DNA of 64,000 nt, taken from NCBI GenBank assembly GCA_903918755.1, contig CAIXFN010000024.1, positions 1 to 64,000 of the forward strand, given 5' to 3'. The notes beneath the pieces are model-generated. The model worked only from the letters and a program-made list of their open reading frames with translations, searched no databases and was not told the origin of the DNA. The DNA comes from an uncultured Pedosphaera sp. (GTDB lineage: Bacteria > Verrucomicrobiota > Verrucomicrobiia > Limisphaerales > Pedosphaeraceae). Shown here one piece after another: positions 3,077 to 56,967 of this stretch (position 1 is the first letter of the stretch; each line of letters opens with the position of its first letter). The position numbers and the translations under genes are program-made.

Positions 3077-3177
3077 ATCTGGAAGGGGAGGCGAGGGAGA
3101 CAAGAGCCCGGCCGGTCGACGGGCGACCGACCGGGGGCGGAAGCTCCGCCCGGATTAGTTTGAGATTGGCGACGGAA

Positions 3178-3903
3178 TTACTTCAGCGATTTGATCTGGA
3201 TGTCCTTGAATTGCGCGCGCATGGCCGTTCCCGCATGCAACTGCAGGGCCAGGATGCCGGACTTCGCGGCCTGTGATTCCTGTTCATCGGTGACATCAAT
3301 GGTCAACATCCCGTTGATTTGGTGGGTCAAATGGTTGCCCTTGGCGATGACGACGTAGTCATTCCAATCACCCTTCTTGATGGCGGCTTCGATCTTGTCG
3401 GCGCTGCCCACGCTGCCCACGACTTCCTTCTTGCCGTTCGCGCGCACGATCACTTTTTCGCCGCGGTTGGCGAGAATTCCCCGGGCCTTTTCTTCGTACA
3501 GAATGCCCGAATAAGTTTTCCCGTTTTCCATGTCTGCCTGGTAGCCGGCCACGACCCAATAGGAAGGCTTGACCACGCGGCTCCGGTATTGGATTCCGGA
3601 ATTGGCGAAACCCGAGGGATCACCCGCCACGAGCTTGAACTTGCAGTGCAATTCGAAATCAGCCACGACCCCGTTCGTCCAAATAAGGAAGGTGTTTTCC
3701 TTGGCGGGCTTTTCCTTGGTGGTTTCGCCGGTGATGGCCCCGTCCTGGACGGACCAGAGGTCCGGACTGCCGTCCCAACCGGTAAGGTCCTTGCCGTTGA
3801 AGAGGGGTTTGAAACCGCCGTCTTGGCCGAAAGCCGATTGCCGTCCGGCCGAAGCCAGGAGCACGATTCCGAAGGCAATTGCCACAATGGATTTTTGTTT
3901 CAT
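3178..3903 (-). CDS. DUF1080 family (3-keto-disaccharide hydrolase-like) secreted protein
   Basis: This protein is 241 aa from ATG 3903; the frame is open to a TTG at 3924, but the signal peptide (SIVAIAFGIVLLASAG) starts at the ATG. The motif 'FKPLFNGKDLTGW' (residues ~31-43) is the family signature of DUF1080, a laminin-G/concanavalin-like jelly roll. Some family members hydrolyse 3-keto-glycosides, and the fold is also used for polysaccharide binding. The ~240-aa length is normal for a single-domain member. The gene is followed after ~100 nt by the ThuA/dehydrogenase gene and preceded by a tagatose-epimerase-like gene, which supports a role in catabolism of oxidised sugars. The specific substrate cannot be read from sequence. 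Confidence 0.88.
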   Translation of the reverse strand: MKQKSIVAIAFGIVLLASAGRQSAFGQDGGFKPLFNGKDLTGWDGSPDLWSVQDGAITGETTKEKPAKENTFLIWTNGVVADFELHCKFKLVAGDPSGFANSGIQYRSRVVKPSYWVVAGYQADMENGKTYSGILYEEKARGILANRGEKVIVRANGKKEVVGSVGSADKIEAAIKKGDWNDYVVIAKGNHLTHQINGMLTIDVTDEQESQAAKSGILALQLHAGTAMRAQFKDIQIKSLK

Positions 3904-4008
3904 GATAAGCTTAATTTGATTCAATTCTGTTGTTTTGACGTCGTTCGGCGGATTTCCTTCAGTCCGCGGGCCCGATTCAGCCCGGGTGCGCCGTTTGGCG
4001 TCGGTGGA

Positions 4009-4854
4009 TCACTTGAGGGTTTTCCGCAGGAAGGCCAGGCCCTTGACCGCGATTTCGTTCCGCGTCGGTTCCATCCGGCGCCAGATCGCGGCGGCCCGAG
4101 CGATGACTTTGACATCCGTGGTGAACGACTCGATTACCACGTCCCCTTTGTAACCAATGGCCTTGAGGGCCGCGGCAATGGGCTTCCAATCGATATGATC
4201 GTTGCCGGGCGTGCCGCGGTCCGAACCGCAGGCATGGAAATGGGCCAGGTATTTGCCGGCTTTGCGAATGGCCGCCGCCTGGTCCTTTTCCTCAATGTTC
4301 ATGTGGAACGTGTCCAGGTGCAGCTTGAAGGCGGGGCTGCCCACGGCTTTTACCAGGCGCAAACCCTGGTCGCAGGTATTCAGGAAATCGGTTTCAAAGC
4401 GGTTGAGCGGTTCCACGCAAATGGTCACCCCGCGGTCCTTCGCGTATTTCGCCAGCACCTTCAAATGGGCCACCACCGTCTTCCATTGCTGCTTGTATTC
4501 GTCCGCCGGCACCGCGTCCGCGCGGCCCACCGCCGAGTACACCGGCCCAATGATTGAGGGGCAGCCCAGTACCACGGCCTGGTCAATCAGCTTGGTGATA
4601 TATTCCATGCCGGTCTTCTGGTTTTCCTCCGTGCCCCGCAAATCGCGGTCCGGACCCATGCAGGCGCAGACCGAGCCGCAGGCCAGACCATATTTATCCA
4701 ACTCCCGCTTCACGTGGGCGGGATCAATGTGCGCGGGATCCTCGATGGGCAGTTCGACGGTATCGAATCCCCATTTCTTGAATTGCTTGAACAACTTCGT
4801 GCTCTCGTTGGTGAACGGGGACGCGAACAAAAACGAATTGATGCCGATTCTCAT
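4009..4854 (-). CDS. Sugar epimerase/isomerase, D-tagatose 3-epimerase-like TIM barrel
   Basis: This protein is 281 aa from ATG 4854 ('MRIGINSF'). It belongs to the AP-endonuclease-2 superfamily of xylose-isomerase-like barrels. The four metal/catalytic positions of the D-tagatose/psicose 3-epimerase group are visible: Glu148 in 'CVEPLNRFETDF', Asp181 in 'LHLDTFHMN', His207 in 'HFHACGSDRGTPG' and Glu242 in 'VVIESFT'. It probably interconverts C3 epimers of a ketose in the cytoplasm using Mn2+ or Co2+. No signal peptide is present, unlike its two downstream neighbours. With the DUF1080 and ThuA genes on the same strand it would complete uptake-side processing of a 3-keto or rare sugar. Similar barrels are often annotated hydroxypyruvate isomerase, but the 'LNRFETDFLNT' motif favours an epimerase. 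Confidence 0.88.
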   Translation of the reverse strand: MRIGINSFLFASPFTNESTKLFKQFKKWGFDTVELPIEDPAHIDPAHVKRELDKYGLACGSVCACMGPDRDLRGTEENQKTGMEYITKLIDQAVVLGCPSIIGPVYSAVGRADAVPADEYKQQWKTVVAHLKVLAKYAKDRGVTICVEPLNRFETDFLNTCDQGLRLVKAVGSPAFKLHLDTFHMNIEEKDQAAAIRKAGKYLAHFHACGSDRGTPGNDHIDWKPIAAALKAIGYKGDVVIESFTTDVKVIARAAAIWRRMEPTRNEIAVKGLAFLRKTLK

Positions 4855-4944
4855 AATAGTGATTGGATTTGTGCGGACCATAGCCCAAGGCAGGCCCGGC
4901 TGAAAAGCTTTTTCCCGTGATTCCGAGCCGGCGGGCACGCTGGT

Positions 4945-5250
4945 TCACCAGCCTGAGTCCGCCGGGAAACAATTCGCAAATTTGACGCTCGTGCGGGGCT
5001 CGGCCATGAGCGGGGCCACGGTGGCCCGCCAGAGTTGGTAATGGGCGGTTTCCTTATGGGCGGCCGGTGCTTCGGGGGTGCGGTAGGCTTCGACCAGTAA
5101 AAACCGGTCCGGGTCATCCGCCTGTTGGATCACATCAAAACGGGCAATGCCCGGTTCCTGGAGACTGGCCTGCGCGTTGGCTACCGTGGCGGCGATGAAA
5201 GCATCGGCACAACCGGGTTTGACCCGGACCTGGACATGAACAATGAGCAT
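4945..5250 (-). CDS. Antibiotic biosynthesis monooxygenase (ABM)-fold protein, YgiN/LsrG-like
   Basis: A 101-residue cytosolic protein with ATG at 5248-5250. It shows the dimeric ferredoxin-like ABM pattern: '[18 protein letters not shown]' start, '[27 protein letters not shown]' core, and '[11 protein letters not shown]' helix. Relatives include quinol monooxygenase YgiN and the autoinducer-2 isomerase LsrG. The stop is 90 nt from the epimerase start on the same strand, so co-transcription is likely. In sugar clusters such proteins can act as small isomerases; rhamnose mutarotases have a comparable fold. The reaction here is undetermined. Confidence 0.85.
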
Positions 5251-5439
5251 GGGTTGCTTTCGGTTGATTTTTATGGCGTTCAGCTGGCCCCGATTAGGTC
5301 CTCAAAGTGTCGGGCTTGTCAATCCGGTCCCGCAAAATGGTTGGGATTGCCTTTGACGCCAGCCCCCGCGTTTGCTTAGCTCGCCCGGAGCTGCTCCCGC
5401 TGCCACGATGACCACCCATAAATTACGAAATCCAACGTC

Positions 5440-6942
5440 ATGAGCACCGGCAACTTTTCCTGGAACGTCTTGCTTGCCCCGGTTCTCGTTGGCAGCTGCA
5501 TCGCGGCGATCATCACGATCTACTTCCGCAATAATCCGCTCGCGCATACCCGCAAATTCATGATGCGGCGGTTCGTGAACTGGTTTCCGCTGGGGATGAC
5601 CTACGCCTTTCTCTACATGGGGCGCTACAACCTGAATGTGGCGAAAGGCGCCCTGGGCACGTTGATGTCCAATGAGGATTTCGGCTGGATCTTTTTCTGG
5701 GGCACGACCACCTACGCCTTTTCCTTCCTCGTGAACGGTCCCCTGGTGGATCGTCTCGGCGGCAAACGCGGCATTCTGATTGCGGCAGGCGGGGCGGCGC
5801 TGGCGAATTGCCTGTTGGGCGTCCTGACCTACCTGGTGCTCATTGGCCAATTGAAAATGAGACTGGTGGTCCCGCTCTCTGTGCTCTACTCGCTGAACAT
5901 GTATTTCCAGAGTTACGGAGCCATGTCGATTATCAAGGTGAAGGCCTATTGGTTTCACGTCCGGGAGCGGGGGGTTTTTGGGGCGGTCTTTGGCACTCTG
6001 ATTTCCATCGGTGTTTATTTCGCCTTCGACTGGGGCCAGTCCATCGTGGTGGCCGCCAAGGCGGCGCCCGTGGCCGAGCCGGGGCTGTTGCGCACGCTGG
6101 TGCAAAAAATCTTCGCCACGGCCGACGGCAAGGTGGATGCGGTCTGGGCCGTTTTCTTCATCCCGGCGGCCATCCTGGTGTTCTGGCTGGTGCTGGATTG
6201 GTGGTTGTTGCGCGATACCCCGGAAGAAGCCGGCTTTCCCGCTTTCGACACCCATGATGCCTCCTCGGGCAAAATGCATATCCATCTCTCCACCATGGAC
6301 CTGCTTCGCAAGGTCTTCACCAGTCCCCTCATGCTGATGCTCGCTGCGGTGGAATTTACCTCCGGAGTGTTGCGCAATGGCATCATGCAATGGTATTTGA
6401 TCTACGCGAAAGGGGTGAAACTGCCGGGCTCCGAAGTGTTCACCGAGCATTGGGGTTTGTTCCTGTGCATCTTCGGGATCATCGGCGGCTTCGGGGGCGG
6501 AATGATGTCCGACCATTTGTTCCATTCCCGCCGTGGTCCGCCGGCCGCTTTGCTGTGCGCCTTCATGTTTGTCATGACCATCGTGATGGCCTGTTTCATC
6601 AATACTTCGGCCCTGATGGTCGGATCTTCGGCGGTGCTGATCTCCATGGCCGTGATCGGGGTGCATTCCCTGATGTCTGGGACCGCGGCGGCGGATTTCG
6701 GCGGCCGCAAAGCCACCGCGACCTGCTCGGGCATTGTGGACGGTTTCGTTTATCTGGGCAGCGGGCTGCAATCCGTCTGTGTCGGCCATCTAACGACCGA
6801 AGGCTGGCTGTCCTGGCCCCTGTTCATGATGCCCTTCGCCCTGCTGGGCGGGGCCATCGCAGTGATGTTCTGGCACGAACTGCCCGAAGCCACCAAGCGC
6901 TACAATGCGGAACATAAAAAGTCCGCTCCCGCGCGGCGGTGA
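5440..6942 (+). CDS. MFS transporter of the organophosphate:phosphate antiporter (OPA) type
   Basis: A 500-residue polytopic membrane protein with about 12 hydrophobic segments. 'YMGRYNLNVAKG' (residues ~59-70) is the characteristic motif after the first core helix in GlpT/UhpT-type OPA antiporters, and 'DRLGGKRG' corresponds to the MFS loop 2-3 signature. It is somewhat longer than GlpT (~450 aa), with an extra N-terminal helix (residues ~10-28) and an extended central loop around residues 205-300. It probably exchanges a phosphorylated sugar or glycerol-3-phosphate for phosphate. It is divergently transcribed from the ABM/epimerase genes across a 189-bp gap, suggesting a shared regulatory region and a role in the same sugar pathway. 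Confidence 0.88.
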   Translation: MSTGNFSWNVLLAPVLVGSCIAAIITIYFRNNPLAHTRKFMMRRFVNWFPLGMTYAFLYMGRYNLNVAKGALGTLMSNEDFGWIFFWGTTTYAFSFLVNGPLVDRLGGKRGILIAAGGAALANCLLGVLTYLVLIGQLKMRLVVPLSVLYSLNMYFQSYGAMSIIKVKAYWFHVRERGVFGAVFGTLISIGVYFAFDWGQSIVVAAKAAPVAEPGLLRTLVQKIFATADGKVDAVWAVFFIPAAILVFWLVLDWWLLRDTPEEAGFPAFDTHDASSGKMHIHLSTMDLLRKVFTSPLMLMLAAVEFTSGVLRNGIMQWYLIYAKGVKLPGSEVFTEHWGLFLCIFGIIGGFGGGMMSDHLFHSRRGPPAALLCAFMFVMTIVMACFINTSALMVGSSAVLISMAVIGVHSLMSGTAAADFGGRKATATCSGIVDGFVYLGSGLQSVCVGHLTTEGWLSWPLFMMPFALLGGAIAVMFWHELPEATKRYNAEHKKSAPARR

Positions 6943-6977
6943 AGCCCCCGCGGTGCGCGACCCAATCGACCCGGCCG

Positions 6978-7472
6978 ATGAAGCTGCCCTATAAAATCGC
7001 CACGTTGCTGTATTGCTTCAACGAAGCCGATGAAGTCCTCCTGCTGGAACGGGCACAGGAACCCAACCTTGGCCAATGGAGTCCCGCCGGTGGCAAGCTC
7101 CAGACCGAGACCGGCGAATCGCCCTACGCCTGCGCCTGCCGCGAAGCTCATGAGGAAATGGGACTGGTCCTGCAGCCGCGGGATTTGCACCTGACCGGCC
7201 TGATCGCCGAACAAGGTTACCAGGGCCAGAGCCATTGGCTTATGTTTCTATTCGAAGTGAAGACGCGTCTGACCGCCACGCCCCCGGCGCATCGGGAAGG
7301 CCGGTTTCAATTCTTCCCGCGCGCGGCGCTCGACGCCTTGCCGTTGCCCGGCACGGATCGCGAGCAAATCTGGCCGTTGTTCTGGCGCCATCGCGGCGGT
7401 TTTTTTGCCGCCTCCTGCCATTGCGGAGCCGACGGGGGCAATGCGTGGACGATTGAGGCTCAGGACGCCTGA
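6978..7472 (+). CDS. Nudix hydrolase, MutT-like
   Basis: This protein is 164 aa from ATG 6978. The frame is open upstream to 6939, overlapping the transporter, but homology-like sequence begins at 'MKLPYKIATLLYCFNE'. The Nudix box is at residues ~39-63: 'GGKLQTETGES' then 'REAHEEMGL', with the metal-binding REAxEE core intact. The distance from the first Gly to the first Glu is two residues longer than the canonical GX5E spacing. A probable nucleotide diphosphate house-cleaning enzyme; the substrate is unknown. It starts 35 nt after the transporter stop and may be co-transcribed with it. Confidence 0.85.
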   Translation: MKLPYKIATLLYCFNEADEVLLLERAQEPNLGQWSPAGGKLQTETGESPYACACREAHEEMGLVLQPRDLHLTGLIAEQGYQGQSHWLMFLFEVKTRLTATPPAHREGRFQFFPRAALDALPLPGTDREQIWPLFWRHRGGFFAASCHCGADGGNAWTIEAQDA

Positions 7473-46592: not shown

Positions 46593-48452
46593 ATGAAAAA
46601 TAAACGAAGTCCGTTCTTTGGGGTTCCGCCCATAATTGCTAGCGGCTTATTACTGGGATTTTCCCTGACCGCCTGGAGCGCCGATCCGCCGACCGCAGCC
46701 GCAGCCGCGGCGGGCAAGCCGATGAACGCCGATGCGGAGCATGCCAAGATTTTCGTCGAGAGCAAATATCCCTCCGCCGCGACCTGTCGCACGTGCCACC
46801 CCAACCATTATCGCGAATGGTCGGTTTCGGCGCACGCTTACGCGCAATTGAGCCCGGTGTTCAACGCCATGCAGGCCACGGTGACCAAGTTGACGGACGG
46901 CTCCAACGGCGATTTTTGCATCCGCTGTCACACCCAGGTCGGAATGAATTTGGGCGAATCGACCTACATGAGCAACATGGACCGGCATCCCACCTCGCGG
47001 GAGGGGATCACCTGCATTGTCTGCCACCGGCTCCAAAATGATTATGGCAAGGTGAGTGGCCGATTCGCTTTGGTGACCGGCGACATTTTGACCCCTGTTT
47101 ACGGCCCGACGGGTGACACTGAACTCAAACGGGTGCTATCCCAGCCGGACGTTTATCGCGTGGTGACCAATTCGTCGGTCGCCGGCCGGAAAATCCATAC
47201 GGAAATCAACAAATTTGAACCCTTACGCACCTCCGGCTTCTGCGGTTCCTGCCACGATGTCACCTTGATGAACGGCTTTCGTCTTGAGGAAGCCTTCAGT
47301 TCCTTCAAGAACTCGCCGGCGGCGCACCGCGGTGAATCCTGCCAGGATTGCCACATGGGCCTGATTCCGGGCAAGAAATCCGGCTACGCCGAGGAACCCG
47401 CTGCCATCGTCGGCGGCATCCCGACCAAGCCCCGCCGGCGGACGAATCACATGTTTGCCGGACCCGACTATTCCGTCGTGAACAAAGGCTTTTTCCCGCA
47501 CAACGACAAAGCGGCAGCGCTGGCCACCATGCGCGAATGGCTGACATTTGATGACGCGGCGGGTTGGGGCACCGACGCCTTTGAAAAGAAGGTTTCGAAA
47601 GATTACAAATTTCCGCCCCGCTGGTCTTCCGTGGACGATCGCTACGACGCGCGGGCCATCCTCAATGATCAATATGGTCTCCTGGCCGATATCCAGAAGC
47701 AGCGCCTGACCATCCTGCGCCAAGGTTATCAACTGGGCGATTTGGTGGTTCAACAAGCCAACGTCAAAGGTCTGAAGTTCAAGATTGAGGTGAAGAGCGG
47801 GACCGATGGTCATAATGTCCCCAGTGGGTTTGATGCCGAGCGCATCTCCTACATGCAAGTCTTTATCAAGGACGCCACCGGCAAGGAAGTGTTCAAGTCG
47901 GGCGATCTCGATCCCAACGGCGATGTGCGCGACTTGCATTCCACCTATGTTCATGATGGCAAACTGCCGCTTGATCCTTATCTCTTTTCCCTCCAATCCC
48001 GCTTTATCACCAGCAACGTGCGGGGTGGGGAGCGCGAACAGGTGCTCGCGGTGAATTATTCGGTGGACCCGCTGCCCTTCATCCGGCCCATGCCTTTCGC
48101 AATGAATTTCACCGGTCGTCCGGCGGGCGCCCGCATTCAACGGCGGGGCTTGGAATCCCTGAGCAGCCGCTGGGCGGAATACAAGGTCAAGAGCTCGGAA
48201 CTGACCGGCACCGGGCCCTACAAGGTGCGGATCCGTTTCCTGGCCGGCATGGTTCCCGTGAATTTGATCACGGAAATCAAGGTCGCGGGCTTCGATTACA
48301 ACATGTCGCCCCGGGACATCGCCGACGCCGTCAAGAACGGCCACTCGCTCTTGTACGACAAGGAAATCATGCTGCAACTCGACGGTAATAAGCCCACCAT
48401 CAACCTTGCCACCCTGGCCGACGTACCCGCCCCCAGCTATGCTCAAAAATAA
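46593..48452 (+). CDS. Secreted pentaheme c-type cytochrome
   Basis: This protein is 619 aa from ATG 46593 (the upstream frame lacks support), with a signal peptide ('IIASGLLLGFSLTAWSA'). Five CXXCH sites: CRTCH, CIRCH, CIVCH, CGSCH and CQDCH, all between residues ~64 and ~253, with extra His residues available as distal ligands ('HPNHYREWSVSAHAYAQ'). The region looks like the cytochrome c554/hydroxylamine-oxidoreductase-type multihaem superfamily. The last ~350 residues have no haem and look beta-rich. First gene of the cluster; its end overlaps the barrel gene by 14 nt, so the two are probably a functional pair. Periplasmic or outer-membrane face. Confidence 0.9.
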   Translation: MKNKRSPFFGVPPIIASGLLLGFSLTAWSADPPTAAAAAAGKPMNADAEHAKIFVESKYPSAATCRTCHPNHYREWSVSAHAYAQLSPVFNAMQATVTKLTDGSNGDFCIRCHTQVGMNLGESTYMSNMDRHPTSREGITCIVCHRLQNDYGKVSGRFALVTGDILTPVYGPTGDTELKRVLSQPDVYRVVTNSSVAGRKIHTEINKFEPLRTSGFCGSCHDVTLMNGFRLEEAFSSFKNSPAAHRGESCQDCHMGLIPGKKSGYAEEPAAIVGGIPTKPRRRTNHMFAGPDYSVVNKGFFPHNDKAAALATMREWLTFDDAAGWGTDAFEKKVSKDYKFPPRWSSVDDRYDARAILNDQYGLLADIQKQRLTILRQGYQLGDLVVQQANVKGLKFKIEVKSGTDGHNVPSGFDAERISYMQVFIKDATGKEVFKSGDLDPNGDVRDLHSTYVHDGKLPLDPYLFSLQSRFITSNVRGGEREQVLAVNYSVDPLPFIRPMPFAMNFTGRPAGARIQRRGLESLSSRWAEYKVKSSELTGTGPYKVRIRFLAGMVPVNLITEIKVAGFDYNMSPRDIADAVKNGHSLLYDKEIMLQLDGNKPTINLATLADVPAPSYAQK

Positions 48453-49887
48453 TGCCTTCCGGAAACACGTCACAGGCTGCGGGATCGCGATTGCCTTCGG
48501 ATTAGCCCTGCCGGGAACTTTCGCGGCGGGAACCAATGATACCTCCCGCTTTTCGGACCAGCCGGCGCCCCTGGCACTGGATACTTTTCCGCAACGACCG
48601 CCCCCGCTGATCGAATTGGGCGACAAGTTCTTGGGGAACGGCAATCTCCAGAAGGGGATTACTTTGCCGACGGGCGAGGTGATTTCCCCCAATTTCTGGG
48701 TGTTTGGCAACCTGCGCTCGGCCGTACAAACCTTCGATACCGGCGCGGCCGCGCCGAGCCGCACCACGGAATGGGCCAATCGGCTGGATATTTTTGGCAA
48801 TTTGCAGTTCTCGGCGACCGAGCGCATTCTGGTGGGCTGGCGTCCCGTGGACCGGGTGCTGAACAACGGTTCCAGCGCATTCAGCGGCTACCGCTTCGAA
48901 CCGACGGCCACCCGCGGGCTGCAGGATGCGTTTAGCGCCACGCCCCGTACCTTATTCTTCGAGGGCGAATTCGGGGAGATGTTTCCCAAGCTGGACGGCC
49001 ACGACAAAAGGAATCTGGATTATGGTTTCGCAGTAGGCCGGCAACCGCTCACGCTGCAAGATGGTCTGCTCGCCAATGACAACAGTGTCGATATGGTGAG
49101 CGTCACCCGTAACGCGATCCTGATCCCGGGAGGCTCCACACTTCGGATTTCCGGGCTGGCGGGCTGGAGCCAGTTGGAACGTCCGGACTACTCGACCCTC
49201 GCCCTGGCCAATACCCCTGACCATCGCGCCCTTTTATTTGGTCTGGATGCGGCGGCGGATTTCCCGGTCAGCACCCTGGAGGGTGACCTCCTTTATGAAA
49301 ATTCCGGAGCGCGGGGCAGCGCCTTCTTTGCCGGCTTGGGCTCCATCCAACGCATCGGAAAATTTAATACCGCTTTCAGGGTGAACAATTCGGTCGCGAT
49401 TGATGGCAACAGCCCGCGCGTTACCAGCGGCACCTTGCTGACCGCCCAAATCTCCTACACCCTGCCGGGGTCGGCCGACTTGGTATACCTCGATGGTTTT
49501 TGGGGCATTGACCGCTTTAGCTCCGCAGCGCGCGACCCCTCCGCCGGCGGTCCGTTGGGTAATGTCGGGATCTTGAATGCCGCCGTGGGTCTTGGTCAAT
49601 ATGGCGCGCCCCTCAGCAATCAGGCGGACAACGCCGCTGGTGGTGCCCTGGGTTATCAAATGTTTTTCGGCGAACTGCGGCGCCAGCAATTGATCCTGGA
49701 ACTCGGCGGACGCGCGCCGACCCAATCGCCCCAGGTTTTGCGCCAGCACGCGGCAGGCGGCATTGGGGTCCGTTATCAACAGGCCTTCGGGCGCCGGTTC
49801 GTGCTGGTGCTCGACACCTTTGGGGTGGAGCGGGATTCCAGTGACGCCGCGGTGGGCGGCCGAATCGAAATCCTTACCAAGTTTTAG
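48439..49887 (+). CDS. Outer-membrane beta-barrel (porin-like) partner of multiheme cytochromes
   Basis: This protein is 482 aa from ATG 48439, overlapping the cytochrome stop. It has a signal peptide ('HVTGCGIAIAFGLALPGTFA'). Alternating hydrophobic/polar strands fill the protein and it ends in phenylalanine ('IEILTKF'), as outer-membrane barrels do. There are no CXXCH motifs. Immediately adjoining multiheme cytochromes make it a candidate sheath of a porin-cytochrome conduit, as in Geobacter Pcc and Shewanella MtrCAB systems, although sequence similarity to those barrels was not tested. Confidence 0.8.
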   Translation: MLKNNAFRKHVTGCGIAIAFGLALPGTFAAGTNDTSRFSDQPAPLALDTFPQRPPPLIELGDKFLGNGNLQKGITLPTGEVISPNFWVFGNLRSAVQTFDTGAAAPSRTTEWANRLDIFGNLQFSATERILVGWRPVDRVLNNGSSAFSGYRFEPTATRGLQDAFSATPRTLFFEGEFGEMFPKLDGHDKRNLDYGFAVGRQPLTLQDGLLANDNSVDMVSVTRNAILIPGGSTLRISGLAGWSQLERPDYSTLALANTPDHRALLFGLDAAADFPVSTLEGDLLYENSGARGSAFFAGLGSIQRIGKFNTAFRVNNSVAIDGNSPRVTSGTLLTAQISYTLPGSADLVYLDGFWGIDRFSSAARDPSAGGPLGNVGILNAAVGLGQYGAPLSNQADNAAGGALGYQMFFGELRRQQLILELGGRAPTQSPQVLRQHAAGGIGVRYQQAFGRRFVLVLDTFGVERDSSDAAVGGRIEILTKF

Positions 49888-49895
49888 CCCGCCAA

Positions 49896-51155
49896 ATGGA
49901 TCTCGCCAAAATAATCAGCCTGTCCGGAGTAGTCCTGTTTCTTTTGGTGACGGTTAACTTGGCCCTCCTGCTTTTGACCACCCTGCGCCGCGCCATGGCG
50001 CTCGGTGAGCAGCGGCGACTGGACGGCGAATGGTTTTCCGAGCGGCTCGCCCTTGCCCGACTGCAACTCAAGCGCCAGGAAAATGCCGGCTCCTGGAACG
50101 GGAACCGCAAATTTGAGATCAGCCGGATCGTCAAGGAATCGGTAGATGCCTCGTCGTTCTACCTGGTGCCGCACGACAAGAAACCGCTGCCTTCATTTCT
50201 TCCCGGCCAGTTCCTGACCTTTGAGATCGATGTGCCGGGCCAGCGGAAGCGCGTCGTGCGCTGTTATTCGCTTTCCGACCGTCCGCGGCCGGACTACTAC
50301 CGCGTCACGATCAAACGAGTTCCCGCCCCCACCGCCGTGCCGGCCGCCAAGCCAGGACTGGTGTCGAACCATTTCCATACAGCATTCAAAGTGGGCGACA
50401 TTCTGGATGTGAAAGCTCCCGGCGGTGGCTTTTTCCTGGACACGAGCCGCCTCACTCCGGTCGTCCTGCTGGCCGGTGGCGTGGGTATCACCCCCATCAT
50501 GAGTATGGTCAACGAAATCATGGCGGTGACGCCGCAACGCGAGATCTGGCTCTTTCTTGGGGTGCGGAACGGTTCGGAACATTTGATGAAAGAGCCGTTG
50601 GAGCAATTGGCCCGCACCAATGATCGGTTGCGGCTGCACGTCTCCTATTCGCAACCGGCCGCCACCGACGCCCAAGGCCGGGATTATCATCATGCCGGCC
50701 GACTGGACATCAGCCTGCTGCGGGAGAAATTGCCCGCCAATAATTTCGATTATTTCATGTGCGGTCCCGGTCCCATGATGGCTGATCTCAACGAAGGCTT
50801 GCTTGCCTGGGGCGTCCCCGAAGAGAGCATCCATTTGGAGGCTTTCGGCCCGGCCAGCGTCAAGCGTACTGCCCCGCCGACCGGCGAGCCCGCCAGTCCG
50901 CAGCTCAAAGTGAGTTTTTCCCGGACCAAAAAGGACGCCGCTTGGGATGGGCAGGCAGAAAGCCTGCTGGACCTGGCTTTGGCGGAGGGTGTGCCGATTG
51001 CCTATGGTTGCCGAGCCGGGAATTGTGGAACTTGCAAGACGGCCATCAAATCCGGCAAGGCGAAGCATCGCAAAAAACCCGGTTGTGAGGTTGAAGCCGG
51101 GACTTGTCTTACCTGCATCGCCCTCCCGGAATCCGATCTTTCCCTCGATGCGTGA
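49896..51155 (+). CDS. Membrane-anchored NAD(P)H/FAD oxidoreductase with 2Fe-2S domain (NqrF-like)
   Basis: A 419-residue protein starting 8 nt after the barrel gene. One N-terminal membrane helix ('SLSGVVLFLLVTVNLALLLL') is followed by an FAD domain ('RCYSLSDRPRPDYYRVTIKR'), an NAD(P) domain ('LLAGGVGITPIMSMVNEI') and a plant-type [2Fe-2S] domain with 'CRAGNCGTCKTAI' and a distal cysteine. This is the order seen in subunit F of Na+-NQR and in several aromatic-oxygenase reductases, reversed or re-ordered in the latter. It would feed electrons from NAD(P)H at the cytoplasmic face into the cluster. Confidence 0.88.
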   Translation: MDLAKIISLSGVVLFLLVTVNLALLLLTTLRRAMALGEQRRLDGEWFSERLALARLQLKRQENAGSWNGNRKFEISRIVKESVDASSFYLVPHDKKPLPSFLPGQFLTFEIDVPGQRKRVVRCYSLSDRPRPDYYRVTIKRVPAPTAVPAAKPGLVSNHFHTAFKVGDILDVKAPGGGFFLDTSRLTPVVLLAGGVGITPIMSMVNEIMAVTPQREIWLFLGVRNGSEHLMKEPLEQLARTNDRLRLHVSYSQPAATDAQGRDYHHAGRLDISLLREKLPANNFDYFMCGPGPMMADLNEGLLAWGVPEESIHLEAFGPASVKRTAPPTGEPASPQLKVSFSRTKKDAAWDGQAESLLDLALAEGVPIAYGCRAGNCGTCKTAIKSGKAKHRKKPGCEVEAGTCLTCIALPESDLSLDA

Positions 51156-51191
51156 TATGGCTTGAGAACTCGGCAAAGCAAAAACTCCTAT

Positions 51192-52193
51192 ATGAAAAGA
51201 AAGATTCAATCCCCACTCTGGTTCCTGAACGGCTGCCTGGTGCCCGTGCTCGCGCTCTGCCTGGCGCCGGCGGTGGGCGCGGCAGATACCAATTATCACG
51301 CGGATCCGGCAAAAATCATGGGGGCGGAGAATTGCAATGAGTGCCATGCGCCCATGGTGGAGGCGTGGAAACTGACCCATCATTTCGACACTTTTACTTC
51401 CATGCACCGTCGCCCGGAAGCGCGCGACATTTCGACCAAAATGGGGATTCGCCGGATCAAGGATGAAAGCCTTTGCCTCAAATGCCATTATACCGACAAG
51501 GCGGATGACGAAGGCAAAGTCACGGCCATTTCCGGCATTTCCTGCGAGTCCTGCCACAGCGCGGCGAAGGACTGGATCAAGGTCCACAATACCAAGGACG
51601 ATCCCGATCGCCTGGCCAAAGCCGAGAAACTGGGAATGCTGCGGGCCATCAATTATTACCACGTCGCCGCGAACTGCTTTTCCTGCCACACGGTCCCCGA
51701 GGAGAAACTCGTAAATGTGGGCGGGCACAAGGCCGGGAGCGATTTTGAACTGGTCTCCTGGCTTTCGGGCGAAGTGCGGCATAACCTGCAAAAGTCCGCA
51801 GGCAAGATCAACGAGGAAATCCCCGCCGAACGCCGTCGGATGTTGTATATCAGCGGCCGGGCCCTGGACCTGGAATTCAGCCTGCGCGCCCTGGCCAAAG
51901 CCACCGAGGAAGGGTTGTATTCCAAAGCCATGGTGGCCCGGGTCAACCTTTCCAAATCACAGTTGGAAGCCATCGCCAAAGCCGCGGATCTCGCCGAGGT
52001 AAAGAAAATTGTGGCCGCCGTGGATGCCGCCGAGTTGAAACCCGCCAACGCCGGCCCGCTGGGCAAAATGGCGGACGCGATCAGCGAAATCAGCAGCGCG
52101 CTGGCCAAATCCCAGGATGGCACCAAACTGGCCGCCATCGATGCCTTGATTCCGGGGCCGGACAAATTCAAGGGAACGGCCTACAAGCCCTGA
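51192..52193 (+). CDS. Tetraheme c-type cytochrome
   Basis: This protein is 333 aa from ATG 51192, with a signal peptide ('FLNGCLVPVLALCLAPAVGA'). Four CXXCH sites (CNECH, CLKCH, CESCH, CFSCH) lie between residues ~48 and ~165, with 'VEAWKLTHHFDTFTSMHRR' supplying distal His. The C-terminal half is helical and haem-free. The N-terminal half resembles cytochrome c554-like periplasmic carriers. It could shuttle electrons between the inner-membrane decaheme and the outer-membrane pair. The 36-nt spacing to the reductase gene and the shared strand support co-expression. Confidence 0.9.
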   Translation: MKRKIQSPLWFLNGCLVPVLALCLAPAVGAADTNYHADPAKIMGAENCNECHAPMVEAWKLTHHFDTFTSMHRRPEARDISTKMGIRRIKDESLCLKCHYTDKADDEGKVTAISGISCESCHSAAKDWIKVHNTKDDPDRLAKAEKLGMLRAINYYHVAANCFSCHTVPEEKLVNVGGHKAGSDFELVSWLSGEVRHNLQKSAGKINEEIPAERRRMLYISGRALDLEFSLRALAKATEEGLYSKAMVARVNLSKSQLEAIAKAADLAEVKKIVAAVDAAELKPANAGPLGKMADAISEISSALAKSQDGTKLAAIDALIPGPDKFKGTAYKP

Positions 52194-52286
52194 GCTTGTC
52201 CCTGATCCGGTGGTGGGAGGTCGCGCCCGGCGCCTCCTCCATCCGGCATCGCACTGCGGCCTGACCGGCCGCCCAACTTTTTGGCC

Positions 52287-54017
52287 ATGTCCGATTCCTC
52301 ACAAATCGTCAAGCGTCCGCAACGTTGGGATGTTCCCTTCTGGAGTGAACTGGAGAATCCCGAGCCGCTGACTCCCGGGGTGGTGGATCGCTGGTTGGAA
52401 CTTCCCATCTTTCGCGGCATGGAGGCGAGTCGGTTCCCCCTCAATAATTCTCCGCGGGATATTCTGGCAAATGACGGGCGGCTGCGCCGCTTTAAGGCGG
52501 GGGACATCATTGTCCGGCAGGGCGATTACGGACATTCGGCTTTCATCGTCCTTTCCGGATCCGCCCAGGTGATTCTGGACAACTTGGGGGATCTGGTTCG
52601 AGGCCGCGAAGACTCCTCTCGCAAAGGGTGGTTGGGGGCCCTGGCGCAATTGTGGCGCAATCCCAAACTTCCCGAGGTGCGCAACCTGGGTGATCGTCGG
52701 CCAGAACGTCCGGAAGAACATACGGACTTCATCGATAAGGATGCGGCGGGGATCTTCGTGCAGGACATCAATGTCATCATCAAGGGCAAGCGCACGGTGG
52801 ATCTTCCGGCGGGCGAACTCTTTGGCGAAATCGCGGCGCTGAGTCGGACCGCCCGGACCAGCACCGTCATCGCCGGTTCCGATTCGGAAATGCTGGAGAT
52901 TCGCTGGCAGGGGCTGCGGGATATCCGGCTCCACGCGCCGGAGTTCAAAGAATACGTGGACCGGTTGTACCGGGATCACAGCCTGCTCAGTCATTTGCGG
53001 GAGACGGCGATGTTTCGCCATCTCGACGACGCCACCTTGAAGCGCGTGGCCGCCGCGACCGAGTTTCTGACTTTTGGAAATTTTGAATGGTATGCCACCT
53101 ACTCCAAAATGCGGGAAACCAGCGGGGCGGAACGCATCCAGAAGGAACCGGTCATCGCCCAGGAGGGACATTATCCCAACGGGGTTTACCTGGTTCGGAG
53201 TGGCTTCGCCCGGTTGAGCGAAACCTACAACAACGGCGAACGCACCGTCAGCTATCTCGGTCGCGGTCAGATTTATGGCTTTGCGGAAGTCGCCATGAAT
53301 TGGAAGGACAAAACCGAACTCCCATTCCAACGCACCCTGCGGGCGGTCGGGTATGCCGATGTGCTTTTCGTGCCCACCTCCGTCCTTGAAGCGGAGGTGC
53401 TGCCGCGATTGCCGACGGCGGAACTGCCCCGTAAACGTCTCGCCGCTGCCGGGCTGGGCGGGGTCCGCGACATGAAGATCCGCCCGGAGATGATGGAATT
53501 CATGGTCGAACGGCGCTTCATCAACGGCACCGCCACCATGATCATTGACATGGATCGTTGCACCCGCTGCGACGATTGCGTCCGGGCGTGCGCGAGCACT
53601 CACAATAACAACCCGCGCTTTTTGCGGCATGGCCCCATCGCCGACGGTTTCATGATCGCCAATGCCTGCATGCATTGCCAGGATCCGGTCTGCATGATTG
53701 GCTGTCCGACCGGGGCCATCCATCGTGATTCCGCGCACGGCCTCGTCGTGATTAATGACCGCACTTGCATCGGTTGTGCCACGTGTGCGAATAGTTGCCC
53801 GTACGACAACATCCAGATGGTCACCGCCCGGAGCCCGGATGGGCGGCCTTTTTACGACCGGGCCACGAACCAGCCGATTCAAAAGGCGGCGAAGTGCGAT
53901 CTCTGTTCCAACCAGATCACCGGGCCGGCCTGCGCCAATGCCTGCCCGCATGACGCGTTGGTGCGGATGGACATGCGCGACGTGGATCACCTGGGGAGCT
54001 GGCTGAACCGACAATGA
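52287..54017 (+). CDS. Fusion of two cyclic-nucleotide-binding-like domains with a four-[4Fe-4S] ferredoxin module
   Basis: This protein is 576 aa from ATG 52287 (a TTG two codons earlier is possible). Two cNMP-binding beta-rolls are visible: residues ~70-210 ('GDIIVRQGDYGHSAFIVLSG', split by an ~50-aa insertion) and ~270-370 ('GVYLVRSGFARLSETYNNGE'). Residues ~415-560 form a DmsB/HybA-type ferredoxin with four Cys sets: CTRCDDCVRAC, CMHCQDPVCMIGCP, CIGCATCANSCP and CDLCSNQITGPACANACP. No signal peptide: cytosolic. It may be a cNMP- or redox-regulated electron-transfer subunit next to the membrane cytochrome b, whose start overlaps its stop by ATGA. Confidence 0.9.
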   Translation: MSDSSQIVKRPQRWDVPFWSELENPEPLTPGVVDRWLELPIFRGMEASRFPLNNSPRDILANDGRLRRFKAGDIIVRQGDYGHSAFIVLSGSAQVILDNLGDLVRGREDSSRKGWLGALAQLWRNPKLPEVRNLGDRRPERPEEHTDFIDKDAAGIFVQDINVIIKGKRTVDLPAGELFGEIAALSRTARTSTVIAGSDSEMLEIRWQGLRDIRLHAPEFKEYVDRLYRDHSLLSHLRETAMFRHLDDATLKRVAAATEFLTFGNFEWYATYSKMRETSGAERIQKEPVIAQEGHYPNGVYLVRSGFARLSETYNNGERTVSYLGRGQIYGFAEVAMNWKDKTELPFQRTLRAVGYADVLFVPTSVLEAEVLPRLPTAELPRKRLAAAGLGGVRDMKIRPEMMEFMVERRFINGTATMIIDMDRCTRCDDCVRACASTHNNNPRFLRHGPIADGFMIANACMHCQDPVCMIGCPTGAIHRDSAHGLVVINDRTCIGCATCANSCPYDNIQMVTARSPDGRPFYDRATNQPIQKAAKCDLCSNQITGPACANACPHDALVRMDMRDVDHLGSWLNRQ

Positions 54018-54823
54018 ATTTCACCACTCGCCGACGGCTTGGATGCTTCCTGTTCGCGGCCACCGCGGGTTTGGCCTGGGTGCTGGATTTCTCGTTGCGC
54101 GTGCGGCTGCGACGCGTGGAACTGCTCACCGGACTGACTTTGATGGTGGTGATCCTCCTCCTGACCCTTTTCAACGCGCGCAAGAAGCTGCCGTTTCTGC
54201 CCCTGCTCCGCGCCTCGACCTGGATGCAGATTCATATCTATGTGGGCCTGTTCAGTTGTGTCTTGTTCGGCCTGCACACGGGTTGGCGGATTCCCCGGGG
54301 GGCTTTTGAATTTGCCCTGGCCTTGTTGTTTTATCTGGTCTCCGCGAGCGGTGTCGTAGGACTTGCCATTTCGCGCTGGCTGCCATCGCGCCTGACAGTT
54401 CAGGGCGAAAATGTCATTTTTGAGCGCATCCCGGCGTTGCGGGCGGCCGTGCGGCGGGAGGTGGAGGAAATGGTGGTGGAGTCGGTGGCCAAATCGCAAT
54501 CCTCCACCATCGCGGACTTTTACGAAGCCCGGCTCCGGAATTACTTTTCGCGGCAACGGTTTCTCGTTTACCACCTGGTCGGTTATGGCAAGCCACGGCA
54601 CGAACTCCTTTCCGAGGCCCAGTCCCTCGACCGCTATCTTAACGCCGATGAACGGGGCATTCTCGGGCGCATTGTGGAAAAGATCCAGGCCAAGGACGAC
54701 CTGGATTTGCAAGCCGCCCGCCAGGGCTTGTTGAAAGGCTGGTTATTCGTCCACATCCCCTTGACCTATTCGATGATTCTCATGGCTTTGGTGCATGGGA
54801 TTCTCGGTTGGAAGCTTTCCTGA
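54014..54823 (+). CDS. Membrane b-type cytochrome-like protein
   Basis: A 269-residue protein coupled to the previous gene by ATGA. About five hydrophobic helices: 'LGCFLFAATAGLAWVLDFSL', 'LLTGLTLMVVILLLTLF', 'IYVGLFSCVLFGLHTGW', 'FEFALALLFYLVSASGVVGL' and 'PLTYSMILMALVHGILGW'. Histidines flank two of them ('QIHIYVG..LH' and 'FVHIPLT..LVH'), the spacing needed for bis-His haem b ligation as in dihaem cytochrome b subunits of respiratory complexes. A charged cytoplasmic middle domain (~140-235) is unusual. Likely the quinone-interacting membrane subunit connecting the ferredoxin protein to the decaheme cytochrome. Confidence 0.75.
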   Translation: MNFTTRRRLGCFLFAATAGLAWVLDFSLRVRLRRVELLTGLTLMVVILLLTLFNARKKLPFLPLLRASTWMQIHIYVGLFSCVLFGLHTGWRIPRGAFEFALALLFYLVSASGVVGLAISRWLPSRLTVQGENVIFERIPALRAAVRREVEEMVVESVAKSQSSTIADFYEARLRNYFSRQRFLVYHLVGYGKPRHELLSEAQSLDRYLNADERGILGRIVEKIQAKDDLDLQAARQGLLKGWLFVHIPLTYSMILMALVHGILGWKLS

Positions 54824-54834
54824 GAGATGTGTAA

Positions 54835-56967
54835 ATGAGTCGCCTGCAAGAATTTGGCTTTGAGAAGAGCCGGTATGAACGCCCCAACCAAAAGTGGGTA
54901 TGCGGCCGCGCCCGGGACGGGCAGTGCTGCCTGGCCGGTCCCGACGAAAAGGGCAATTGCACTGCGACCGCGGAGTGCCGCCCGTTGCGTAAGGGCGACC
55001 GTTGGTTTTGCTCCCGGCCCGCGTTTATGGGTGGCCCTTGTCCCGATGGCCCCCTTTCCGATGGTCGGTGCTGTCGCGAAATTCCGAAATGCAGTCCGGT
55101 CCGGAGCCTGCGCTCCTGGCGTGGTCTGACGGTTCTCCTGGCCGTCGCGATTACCCTGGCCGCCTTGTTGGTTGCCCTCGGTTCGAAACGCGGTAATCAG
55201 GTTTTCTCCCCGGGGCCGCTCAGTTTCGCGCACCGTTCGGTGAGTAACAATTGTTCCGAGTGCCACGCCGGATTGGAAAAACCGGCGGCTCGCTGGCTGC
55301 TCGCCGACGCCTCCCTGCACTCCGCTCATGACAATAGCCAGTCCTGCCTGAAATGCCATAATTTGGGGGATGCTCCCCTTCAGCCCCACGCCCTCCCGCC
55401 CGGTCGCCTCAAGACCTTGGCGCGCACCACCAGCGGAACCACCAGTGGCGACCGCCCCGGAGGTTTGGTCCTGGCTTCGTTCATCGCCAAACCCGGCCAT
55501 CCTGCCGGCCAGGACATTGCCTGTGCGACCTGCCACCGGGAACATCGTGGCGAGGAAGCCAATCTTAAAAAAATCACCAATGACCAGTGCCAGAGCTGCC
55601 ACTCAAAGCAGTTTGCCAGCCTGGCCGTCGGCCATCCCGCCTTCACTGATTATCCGTTTGCCCGCCGCACCCGTATCATATTTGACCATGGCACCCACCT
55701 GCGCGGCCACTTTGCCGAGGCCGCCGTCGCCAAACTGGCGCCGAAATTGTGCGTGGATTGCCATCAATCGGACCTGCGCGGAGGCATGATGGTAGTCAAA
55801 CCCTATGAAACTATTTGTGCTGCCTGTCACGACGACCAGATCAAAAGCAAAGCTGCGGTCAAGCCCGGTATTGCCTTTCTCGGTCTTCCGCGTCTGGACG
55901 ACCGGAATCTGGCCGGCGAATACGCGATTGGCGAGTGGCCGGAAGATGCGGATCAACCGTTGACGCCCTTCCTGCGGTTGCTGCTCGCCGCCGATCCAGA
56001 CCTTCGTGCCGCGTTGGATCGCCTGCAAGGTGCGGATCTCGCCAACCTCCCGAAAACCGACCCCGCCAAGCTAAAGGCGGCCCAGCAACTCGCTTGGGGA
56101 ATCAAGGCACTCATCTTTGACCTTGGCTTGCGCGGGCAGGAGGAATTGATCCGGCGCATCAACATTATTGCCGGACGCACGCTGGCGGACCAGGAAAAGG
56201 AAGGGGTTGTCGCGTTTCTGGGGGTGGATGTGGTGCGTGATACTTTCCGCGGTGCCTTCCCGAACTTGTCAAAGGAAGTGTTGGATTACCGCAATAACCA
56301 TAAATCCGCCGCCACCCAATTAGTGCCTTCTCCCGAACTGGCCAAACCCGGCCCCGTGAAGCCGGTATCGCCGGACAATTGGGTCAGTCAGGGCGGCTGG
56401 TACAGCCCGGAGGGATCGTTTGCAATCTTCTATCATCCGCGCGGCCATCACGACCGTTTTCTAAGCTCCTGGATGAACCTGACCGTGGATGCCGGCCGCA
56501 CCACCGATCCCGCCCGCTCCCTGGCGTTGTTCAAGGAACTTACCGTGCCCAAGGCGGTGGGGTACTGCGCCAAGTGCCACAGCATTGATGAATCGACGGT
56601 CAGCCAGGTTAACTGGCTGGCTTTCCGGCCGGATCCCGCGGTCCATGGATTCAATCGTTTTTCCCATTCCGCGCACATGAGCTTGCTGGATCCGCGCGAG
56701 GGTTGCCTGACCTGTCATTCCATGACCGAGGCCCCGGCCCAGGGCAAGGATTCCTATGCCTCCGCGTTTGCGACCGGTCAGCATGATCCCGCTCAATTCA
56801 TCAGCAACTTTCGGACGATTGACAAAGCCGTCTGTGCCAATTGCCACCGGCCAACCATGGTCCGGGACGATTGCCTGCTTTGCCACAATTACCACATCGG
56901 TCGGTTCAAGCGGGTGATGGCCCACACCGCCATGGGTGCCGCCCTGCCGAACTCCCCCGTCAAATAA
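54835..56967 (+). CDS. Inner-membrane-anchored decaheme c-type cytochrome with Cys-rich N-terminal domain
   Basis: A 710-residue protein. Residues 1-90 are cytosolic-side and contain ten cysteines in two similar segments ('WVCGRARDGQCCLAGP' and 'WFCSRPAFMGGPCPDGP', each followed by CC and a lone C), with no signal peptide. A membrane helix ('LTVLLAVAITLAALLVALG') at ~95-117 follows. Ten CXXCH sites occur between ~140 and ~685: CSECH, CLKCH, CATCH, CQSCH, CVDCH, CAACH, CAKCH, CLTCH, CANCH and CLLCH. They form two groups (six and four) around a haem-free domain. It is the probable periplasmic wire from the b-type cytochrome outward. Starts 11 nt after the cytochrome b gene. Confidence 0.9.
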   Translation: MSRLQEFGFEKSRYERPNQKWVCGRARDGQCCLAGPDEKGNCTATAECRPLRKGDRWFCSRPAFMGGPCPDGPLSDGRCCREIPKCSPVRSLRSWRGLTVLLAVAITLAALLVALGSKRGNQVFSPGPLSFAHRSVSNNCSECHAGLEKPAARWLLADASLHSAHDNSQSCLKCHNLGDAPLQPHALPPGRLKTLARTTSGTTSGDRPGGLVLASFIAKPGHPAGQDIACATCHREHRGEEANLKKITNDQCQSCHSKQFASLAVGHPAFTDYPFARRTRIIFDHGTHLRGHFAEAAVAKLAPKLCVDCHQSDLRGGMMVVKPYETICAACHDDQIKSKAAVKPGIAFLGLPRLDDRNLAGEYAIGEWPEDADQPLTPFLRLLLAADPDLRAALDRLQGADLANLPKTDPAKLKAAQQLAWGIKALIFDLGLRGQEELIRRINIIAGRTLADQEKEGVVAFLGVDVVRDTFRGAFPNLSKEVLDYRNNHKSAATQLVPSPELAKPGPVKPVSPDNWVSQGGWYSPEGSFAIFYHPRGHHDRFLSSWMNLTVDAGRTTDPARSLALFKELTVPKAVGYCAKCHSIDESTVSQVNWLAFRPDPAVHGFNRFSHSAHMSLLDPREGCLTCHSMTEAPAQGKDSYASAFATGQHDPAQFISNFRTIDKAVCANCHRPTMVRDDCLLCHNYHIGRFKRVMAHTAMGAALPNSPVK

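Follow-up and report, generated by a model that had tools for sequence, protein, structure and literature searches.

A Verrucomicrobiota member of the PCC4 gene sets, a candidate trans-envelope electron-transfer system pairing a pentahaem cytochrome with a predicted small porin

What do seven adjacent genes rich in haem-binding motifs do in the envelope of an uncultured Pedosphaera sp., and has such a set been seen before? The genes lie on the + strand at 46593-56967 of the 64,000-nucleotide stretch of contig CAIXFN010000024.1 that we analysed (the window), in the order PENTA-BARREL-RED-TETRA-CNMP-CYTB-DECA. An initial annotation, made from the letters of the DNA, had proposed that they form a single conduit for electrons and that their composition did not match the known Mtr or Geobacter Pcc gene sets. 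Our check of the open reading frames (ORFs) reproduced the positions, the CXXCH counts it had given (5 in PENTA, 4 in TETRA and 10 in DECA, 19 in total) and the two overlaps, 14 nt between PENTA and BARREL and 4 nt between CNMP and CYTB, both exact; the intergenic distances from gene 1 to gene 7 are -14, 8, 36, 93, -4 and 11 nt. In 2000 shuffled controls per protein, the mean number of CXXCH motifs was at most 0.06 and the maximum 1. We consider it probable that the locus encodes a full trans-envelope system for electron transfer, of the PCC4 Subgroup II kind, in which PENTA sits at the periplasmic face of a small porin. The genes and their main sites are the following:

46593..48452, + strand: PENTA (P0001), pentahaem c-type cytochrome, 619 amino acids (aa); five CXXCH, conserved His, AlphaFold2 model with the 5ze8 fold
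46785..47354, + strand: the five PENTA CXXCH motifs, residues 65-254, by motif count
48439..49887, + strand: BARREL (P0002), predicted outer-membrane beta-barrel, 482 aa; from the predicted fold of its homologue in locus L085 and tblastn linkage
49896..51155, + strand: RED (P0003), membrane-anchored FAD/NAD(P)H/C-terminal [2Fe-2S] reductase, 419 aa; Pfam, hydropathy, conserved Cys
51192..52193, + strand: TETRA (P0004), c554-type tetrahaem c-type cytochrome, 333 aa; four CXXCH, PF13435, invariant His
51333..51689, + strand: the four TETRA CXXCH motifs, residues 48-166, by motif count
52287..54017, + strand: CNMP (P0005), cyclic nucleotide monophosphate (cNMP)-binding domains plus four [4Fe-4S] sites, 576 aa; PF00027, PF13247, conserved Cys
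52464..53396, + strand: cNMP-binding region of CNMP, about residues 60-370; PF00027, conserved residues
53559..53945, + strand: the four [4Fe-4S] motifs of CNMP, residues 425-553; motifs, conservation
54014..54823, + strand: CYTB (P0006), di-haem b-type inner-membrane protein, 269 aa, equivalent to the PCC4 'IMP'; conserved His, Trp and SGXXG
54233..54277, + strand: first HX13H of CYTB, H74-H88; conservation
54752..54796, + strand: second HX13H of CYTB, H247-H261; conservation
54835..56967, + strand: DECA (P0007), decahaem cytochrome, 710 aa, with one transmembrane segment (TM, residues 94-119); ten CXXCH, TM, conserved His
55252..56886, + strand: the ten DECA CXXCH motifs, residues 140-684, by motif count

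PCC4 was defined by He, Barco, Emerson and Roden in 2017 (PMC5566968). The passages of that paper on the cluster describe a porin with multihaem cytochromes of 4, 5 and 10 haems, all three periplasmic, and additional redox genes, together with a membrane protein of five helices bearing two WX3HX13H motifs and one SGXXG motif. In Subgroup II a pfam13247 Fe-S gene lies upstream of the membrane protein and a redox gene upstream of the tetrahaem gene. The window likewise has a porin, its barrel nature coming from prediction on a homologue, and 4-, 5- and 10-haem cytochromes; in CYTB, W70-H74-H88, W243-H247-H261 and S112-G113-G116 fit the two WX3HX13H motifs and the SGXXG, P0005 contains PF13247, and the gene order is RED-TETRA-CNMP-CYTB. 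As described for PCC4, the cluster includes no extracellular cytochrome. Judged by gene content and motifs, the window is a complete PCC4 Subgroup II set, and the idea that its composition matched no known system had to be given up. The system has been known as a candidate since 2017, and the window is a real and well-conserved Verrucomicrobiota member of it, outside the hosts listed in those passages (Zeta-, Gamma- and Alphaproteobacteria and Planctomycetes). Subgroup I is represented among our homologues by four Hyphomicrobium loci (L113, L115-L117) in which PENTA-BARREL is divergent from the remaining genes; identities to the window are 39-40% for PENTA, 45-47% for TETRA, 34-35% for DECA, 27-31% for CYTB and 27-28% for BARREL, and no CNMP gene was called in the portion examined. 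What we add of weight are natural fusions, a predicted small-porin fold, a full set of candidate haem ligands and a modular inner-membrane part. The pentahaem-porin fusions and the small-porin fold are absent from the passages on PCC4 in PMC5566968; the word 'cyclic' does not occur in its main text, and the cNMP domains are thus undiscussed there.

Conservation of the cofactor sites was read from homologous loci. A profile search of genome contigs with a four-row PENTA alignment yielded at least 402 relatives, of which the best 80 were kept. After filters on coverage, E-value and length had removed fragments and distant copies, the alignments contained 73 rows for PENTA, 68 for BARREL, 22 for RED, 35 for TETRA, 28 for CNMP, 27 for CYTB and 25 for DECA. 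PENTA has an N-terminal hydrophobic signal-like segment, a helical haem part and a C-terminal beta domain. Its five CXXCH motifs are conserved (C68 in 98% of rows, the others in 100%), as are six further His residues: H81, H202, H286 and H407 in 100%, H50 in 98% and H449 in 97%. The Pfam families over their cut-offs include cytochrome c554 and MtrC/MtrF domain II/IV (30.6 against a cut-off of 30). TETRA, also with a signal-like segment, matches PF13435 with 53.2 bits and carries H64, H132, H179 and H197, each at 100%, in addition to its four CXXCH. In DECA the final four of the ten motifs are kept in 88-92% of rows, and ten extra His (H133, H185, H237, H267, H285, H288, H538, H611, H614 and H687) in 88-100%; cytochrome c7 and MtrC/MtrF domain II/IV (38.5) exceed the Pfam cut-offs. 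Lys/Arg residues number four in the 15 residues preceding the DECA TM and one in those following; its N-terminal ~93 residues would be cytoplasmic and its haem part periplasmic. Residues 1-92 (54835-55110), ahead of the TM and without a Pfam match, contain ten Cys in two repeats, eight of them kept in 64-76% of rows, and possibly form a metal or Fe-S site that accepts electrons from the CNMP protein.

The inner-membrane and cytoplasmic proteins are similarly well conserved at their cofactor sites. All four His of the two HX13H pairs of CYTB (H74, H88, H247 and H261) are found in 100% of rows, and W70, W243, S112, G113 and G116 each in at least 90%. CYTB has no Pfam match over the cut-off. For the five helices of the PCC4 membrane protein, simple hydropathy scanning of CYTB picked out five windows, of which two overlap, and did not pick up the helix that carries H74/H88. 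CNMP matches PF00027 (cNMP_binding) and PF13247 (Fer4_11) over the cut-offs; 15 of its 16 cluster Cys are at 100% and C540 is at 96%. It has no TM or signal hydrophobic segment in the hydropathy scan and would be located in the cytoplasm. In its first cNMP site G180 and E181 are present in 28 of 28 rows, and R190, which we take to be the phosphate-site Arg of the cNMP domain, in just 17, so that control by a cyclic nucleotide is a possibility, not more. RED matches PF00970 (FAD_6), PF00175 (NAD_1) and PF00111 (Fer2) over the cut-offs, has an N-terminal hydrophobic segment at residues 1-33 and a C-terminal 2Fe-2S domain, and keeps C372, C377, C380 and C407 in 100% of rows. Pfam thus agrees with the earlier reading of a cNMP/4x[4Fe-4S] fusion, a FAD/NAD/2Fe-2S reductase and multihaem families. 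The description of RED as NqrF-like fared less well: the domains are there, but the likeness is loose, the NCBIfam model TIGR01941 (nqrF) scoring 83.9 bits, far under its cut-off of 295, and the 2Fe-2S domain being C-terminal, and we rejected NqrF as its identity. BARREL has no conserved Cys or His in its 68 rows and no Pfam or NCBIfam match. Over the whole set, a candidate second His is conserved for each of the 19 c haems, and four His for the two b haems. This pattern suggests electron carriers with bis-His haems.

The PENTA and BARREL genes travel together. In 77 of the 80 PENTA loci a BARREL gene was found by tblastn (E 1e-6); of the other three, L069 is a 3.8 kb contig, L112 ends at the PENTA match and L114 has only a weak blastp match. 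All 67 pairs with good gene calls are on the same strand, with a median gap of 6 nt and a gap of at most 60 nt in 48. In two loci both proteins are encoded by a single ORF: L066, from an Acidobacteria metagenome-assembled genome (MAG), encodes 1139 aa with 56% identity in the PENTA part and 40% in the BARREL part, and L085, from a Saprospiraceae MAG, 1080 aa with 52-53% and 42%. Neither fusion linker has a signal-like segment (hydropathy over 15 residues peaks at 1.21 and 0.63); 57 of 65 stand-alone barrels reach 1.6 within their first 60 residues. Because an error that lost only the stop codon would keep the signal peptide of the barrel, the fusions are probably real rather than sequencing artefacts, and they suggest that PENTA and BARREL function as one unit. 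The two are not sister rows in the PENTA tree, so that one origin or two are both possible. In another locus, L029 (6450-10158, genome G121), the PENTA frame is broken by shifts and stops and the barrel frame is open, through either sequencing error or decay.

We read the barrel fold from the L085 homologue of the window BARREL. The AlphaFold2 model of this fusion, made with a 68-row alignment, had a mean predicted local distance difference test (pLDDT) score of 76 and a predicted template-modelling score (pTM) of 0.52, with the barrel part mostly above 90 and the pentahaem part poor. The barrel part contains 19 strand segments of at least 7 residues. Structure matches of the fusion span this part alone; the best in the PDB is OccK7 (Z 27.5, root-mean-square deviation (rmsd) 3.1, 321 residues aligned), and the other top matches are MOMP, OpdQ, more OprD-family porins and AlgE. 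MtrB is not among the matches listed, and we attach no weight to its absence. OprD/Occ barrels have 18 strands. The PCC4-type barrel is predicted to be of this OprD/Occ porin fold, with ~18 strands, and the fold of this 42% identical homologue supports the outer-membrane barrel of the initial annotation. The window PENTA, modelled alone with a 65-row alignment, gave pLDDT 85 and pTM 0.84. Its sole clear fold match is the penta-haem c552 of Thermochromatium tepidum (5ze8; Z 21.7, rmsd 3.4), with 350 of 385 residues aligned at 19% identity and both haem and beta parts covered; a profile match (E 1e-9) points to the same protein. Matches ranking below 5ze8 cover the beta domain. H407 sits in the beta part, which therefore contributes a conserved candidate ligand. 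Our literature searches returned no recognisable paper on this c552 or on the cNMP/Fe-S fusion.

Several known systems pair an outer-membrane barrel with a multihaem cytochrome, among them MtrCAB, MtoAB and PioAB. In contrast to these, the cytochrome partner in the window has five haems and a beta domain, and the ~18-strand barrel is predicted on homologue L085 rather than solved. MtrB has 26 strands and encloses the 10-haem MtrA (PMC7198977); compared with this, the predicted OprD/Occ fold makes it more likely that the cytochrome docks at the pore mouth than that it threads the barrel. The initial annotation had supposed a barrel that holds a multihaem protein and had named a substrate-specific porin as the finding that would tell against it. 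The pairing with a pentahaem cytochrome stands, and the predicted porin type goes part of the way towards that objection. The PENTA-BARREL fusions share with Cyc2 the order of a cytochrome at the N-terminus and a porin at the C-terminus. Cyc2 has one haem motif (PMC6344600), whereas there are five haems here, in the L066 and L085 fusions too, and in the window the two proteins have separate genes.

Taken together, conservation, gene order, haem ligation and the fusions support one trans-envelope electron-transfer system, as the initial annotation had proposed. We infer the following path, including its order, docking, direction and substrate. Electrons would pass from NAD(P)H to FAD and the [2Fe-2S] cluster in RED, then to the four [4Fe-4S] clusters of the cytoplasmic CNMP, cross the inner membrane through the two b haems of CYTB and continue through DECA, TETRA and PENTA to the outside. 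PENTA would sit on the periplasmic face of the ~18-strand porin and exchange electrons with a substrate entering the pore, or a haem edge of PENTA might reach into the pore; it would not be an MtrA-like wire sheathed by a wide barrel. Metal ions, humics and other soluble redox compounds are candidate substrates. For the b-haem motifs of PCC4 a comparison with NADPH oxidases (NOX) and ferric reductases was already made in PMC5566968. As in those enzymes, an NAD(P)H flavoprotein would feed two b haems held in two HX13H motifs; in contrast, the flavoprotein, Fe-S relay and b protein of the window are separate and the electrons would continue to c-type cytochromes.

We lean towards outward flow from NAD(P)H, because the cytoplasmic partners are of the NAD(P)H-reductase kind and the b haems would be held in NOX/ferric-reductase-like motifs, and give inward flow a substantial, lesser weight; the sequence does not decide between them. 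The membrane potential favours outward electron flow. In a scheme of electron uptake, a donor such as Fe(II) or Mn(II), outside the cell or diffusing through the pore, would be oxidised by PENTA/BARREL. Its electrons would then enter by way of TETRA and DECA and reach the b haems and the quinone pool, and RED and CNMP would serve uphill NAD(P)+ reduction. Flow from outside to the cytoplasmic Fe-S/NAD partners would oppose the membrane potential, these partners are of the NAD(P)H-reductase type, and the anatomy is common to both directions. However, inward flow to the quinone pool is how He et al. drew PCC4, which they found in Fe(II)-oxidising Zetaproteobacteria, in an enrichment that oxidises pyrite and in a filter for drinking water (PMC5566968). 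Several of the 80 loci belong to OFTM MAGs, whose source is a tunnel where biofilms oxidise iron and manganese (PMC10732223), and the genome of the window has three COX1-family matches. We regard uptake as a credible possibility, short of probable. These habitats and the inward published model weigh against our preferred reading of a complete outward conduit with PENTA at the porin, as do further points. Our search of the literature under the name PCC4 found no experiment, and one further mention, in a 2026 metagenome paper. The pTM of 0.52 leaves the relative arrangement of the two domains of the L085 fusion undefined; the barrel fold resembles substrate-specific porins, and a substrate channel for a periplasmic cytochrome is equally compatible with it; the closest solved relative of PENTA, c552, was deposited alone. 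RED was found in just 31 of the 80 loci, and eight loci have a different flavoprotein family (Pyr_redox_2 in the member scanned).

How PENTA and the barrel cooperate can be read in other ways. An insulated wire like MtrAB, with PENTA inside the barrel as its electrical sheath, would account for the tight pairing and the two fusions, and MtrAB operates so (PMC7198977). The homologous barrel, however, has 19 strand segments and matches OprD/Occ porins (Z 27), compared with the 26 strands of MtrB, and the large C-terminal beta domain of PENTA with its invariant H407 could hardly fit into a barrel of this kind; we consider the wire improbable. An arrangement that is somewhat easier to accept, if still unlikely, is a substrate-specific porin serving a periplasmic reductase, in which a soluble oxyanion or organic compound is imported and reduced by the cytochromes in the periplasm, with no strict extracellular electron transfer. 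This would agree with the OprD/Occ, MOMP and AlgE folds among the best barrel matches and with the fold relative of PENTA in T. tepidum, as well as a weak similarity of PENTA to families around c-type nitrite reductase. However, PENTA has six conserved candidate His to serve its five haems, which leaves no obvious open site, and we saw no recurrent family of separate reductases beside the genes. Tentatively, PCC4 could be a distinct class of outer-membrane electron exchanger, in which a small substrate-porin barrel is coupled, or in certain lineages fused, to a pentahaem cytochrome at its periplasmic mouth and a NOX-like NAD(P)H module, shared with other outer partners, is maybe gated by cyclic nucleotides; the redox partner would then reach the haems through the pore and the haems would not cross the membrane. 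Should a pentahaem cytochrome docked to a small porin indeed move electrons across the outer membrane, the picture of a haem wire in a wide barrel would not be general.

In 288 genomes of the phylum, that of the window included, BARREL was found in five (E 1e-5, own included) and CNMP in 11 (E 1e-60). All five BARREL genomes also have PENTA at E 1e-109 or better. In a sixth genome, G086, a 34% identical relative precedes an ORF that has no BARREL match, and another five genomes have weak partial matches. In four loci of the same class (L035, L037, L038 and L041) the genes after CNMP-CYTB-DECA, a part that comes with RED, encode another type of barrel, ~800 aa long, and a 10-haem cytochrome that has LVIVD repeats in the member scanned. 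The big barrel occurs in nine of the 288 genomes, own included; of eight genomes with CNMP and without BARREL, it is present in five and absent from G075, G122 and G155. The inner-membrane module occurs with more than one outer partner, and a module common to two outer partners would suggest a way in which NAD(P)H could feed external electron transfer without the quinone pool. The big-barrel/LVIVD loci are possibly related to the porin-multihaem cytochrome clusters proposed for extracellular electron transfer in freshwater Verrucomicrobia (He et al. 2017, PMC5615132), whose eight-haem cytochrome, as described there, does not fit their decahaem gene. Those clusters resemble the window in phylum and in combining a porin with multihaem cytochromes; they differ in their eight-haem periplasmic cytochrome and a porin with 20 or more TM motifs, compared with 5, 4 and 10 haems in the window. 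The genome of the window itself carries this second type, split across two contigs: a putative conduit of a ~780-aa barrel (53%) and a 10-haem LVIVD cytochrome (67%) at 9639-15847 of L122 (contig C52), and a RED-CNMP-CYTB-decahaem module at 7749-13528 of L032 (contig C76).

In the best 80 loci, tblastn (E 1e-6) found TETRA in 53, CYTB in 41, CNMP in 38 and DECA in 35; the full set of seven genes is present in 18, many of the others being short or ended by contig ends. The 73 rows of the PENTA tree fall under 11 phylum labels taken from record titles, with five rows unlabelled. The labels are mixed, with 16 changes against a minimum of 10 by a quick tree method, which is compatible with transfer and no proof of it; most relatives are MAGs, whose labels depend on binning. 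Records not titled MAG include Rhodopirellula sp. JC639, which has the PENTA-BARREL pair, and Thalassomonas sp. RHCl1, and with such relatives PCC4, proposed in 2017, is open to direct test.

We also took a census of the neighbouring genes, using 642 mechanically called ORFs of at least 120 aa, some probably antisense, in 10 kb flanks of the 80 loci. With groups linked at E 1e-12, no family outside the seven genes occurred in more than 9 of the 80 loci. The five commonest groups are signalling proteins, YceI-like proteins, ABC ATPases, a Pyr_redox_2-type flavoprotein and FHA proteins, named by Pfam on one member each except the signalling group, which was judged from its sequences. A dedicated terminal reductase always accompanying the set, which the initial annotation had named as a finding that would speak against a conduit, was rejected: none is among these five groups within the 10 kb searched, the smaller groups not being named singly. 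The YceI-like group is one of three that reach nine loci, and its gene abuts PENTA or BARREL in L069 (846-1706), L074 (9176-9781), L085 (13314-13910) and L089 (13266-13868).

Some loci differ in their redox and signalling genes. In an Acidobacteriota-type variant without RED, TETRA is doubled in tandem and has 7-8 CXXCH, as in the eight-haem proteins of two tetrahaem repeats in L044 (13480-15684) and L053 (7494-9581). Nearly all members of the flavoprotein family, which joins Pyr_redox_2 to FHA in the one member scanned and occurs in eight loci, and of a separate FHA family, in six, belong to this octahaem variant. FHA-domain proteins, one of them fused to Pyr_redox_2, lie at 20058-21665 of L043 and 19989-21098 of L044, and phospho-signal control of the variant is possible. 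L043 also encodes, at 3168-7295, ~2.5 kb upstream of PENTA, a 1375-aa ORF with class III nucleotide cyclase and AAA domains, a single case that deserves mention because the gene set includes a cNMP-binding protein. Larger cytochromes are encoded beside or near the PENTA-BARREL pairs of L103 (15-17 haems) and L097 (11 haems). The 7.2 Mb genome of the window has 47 matches to PF00034 (cytochrome c), many of them within ORFs of 600-2400 aa.

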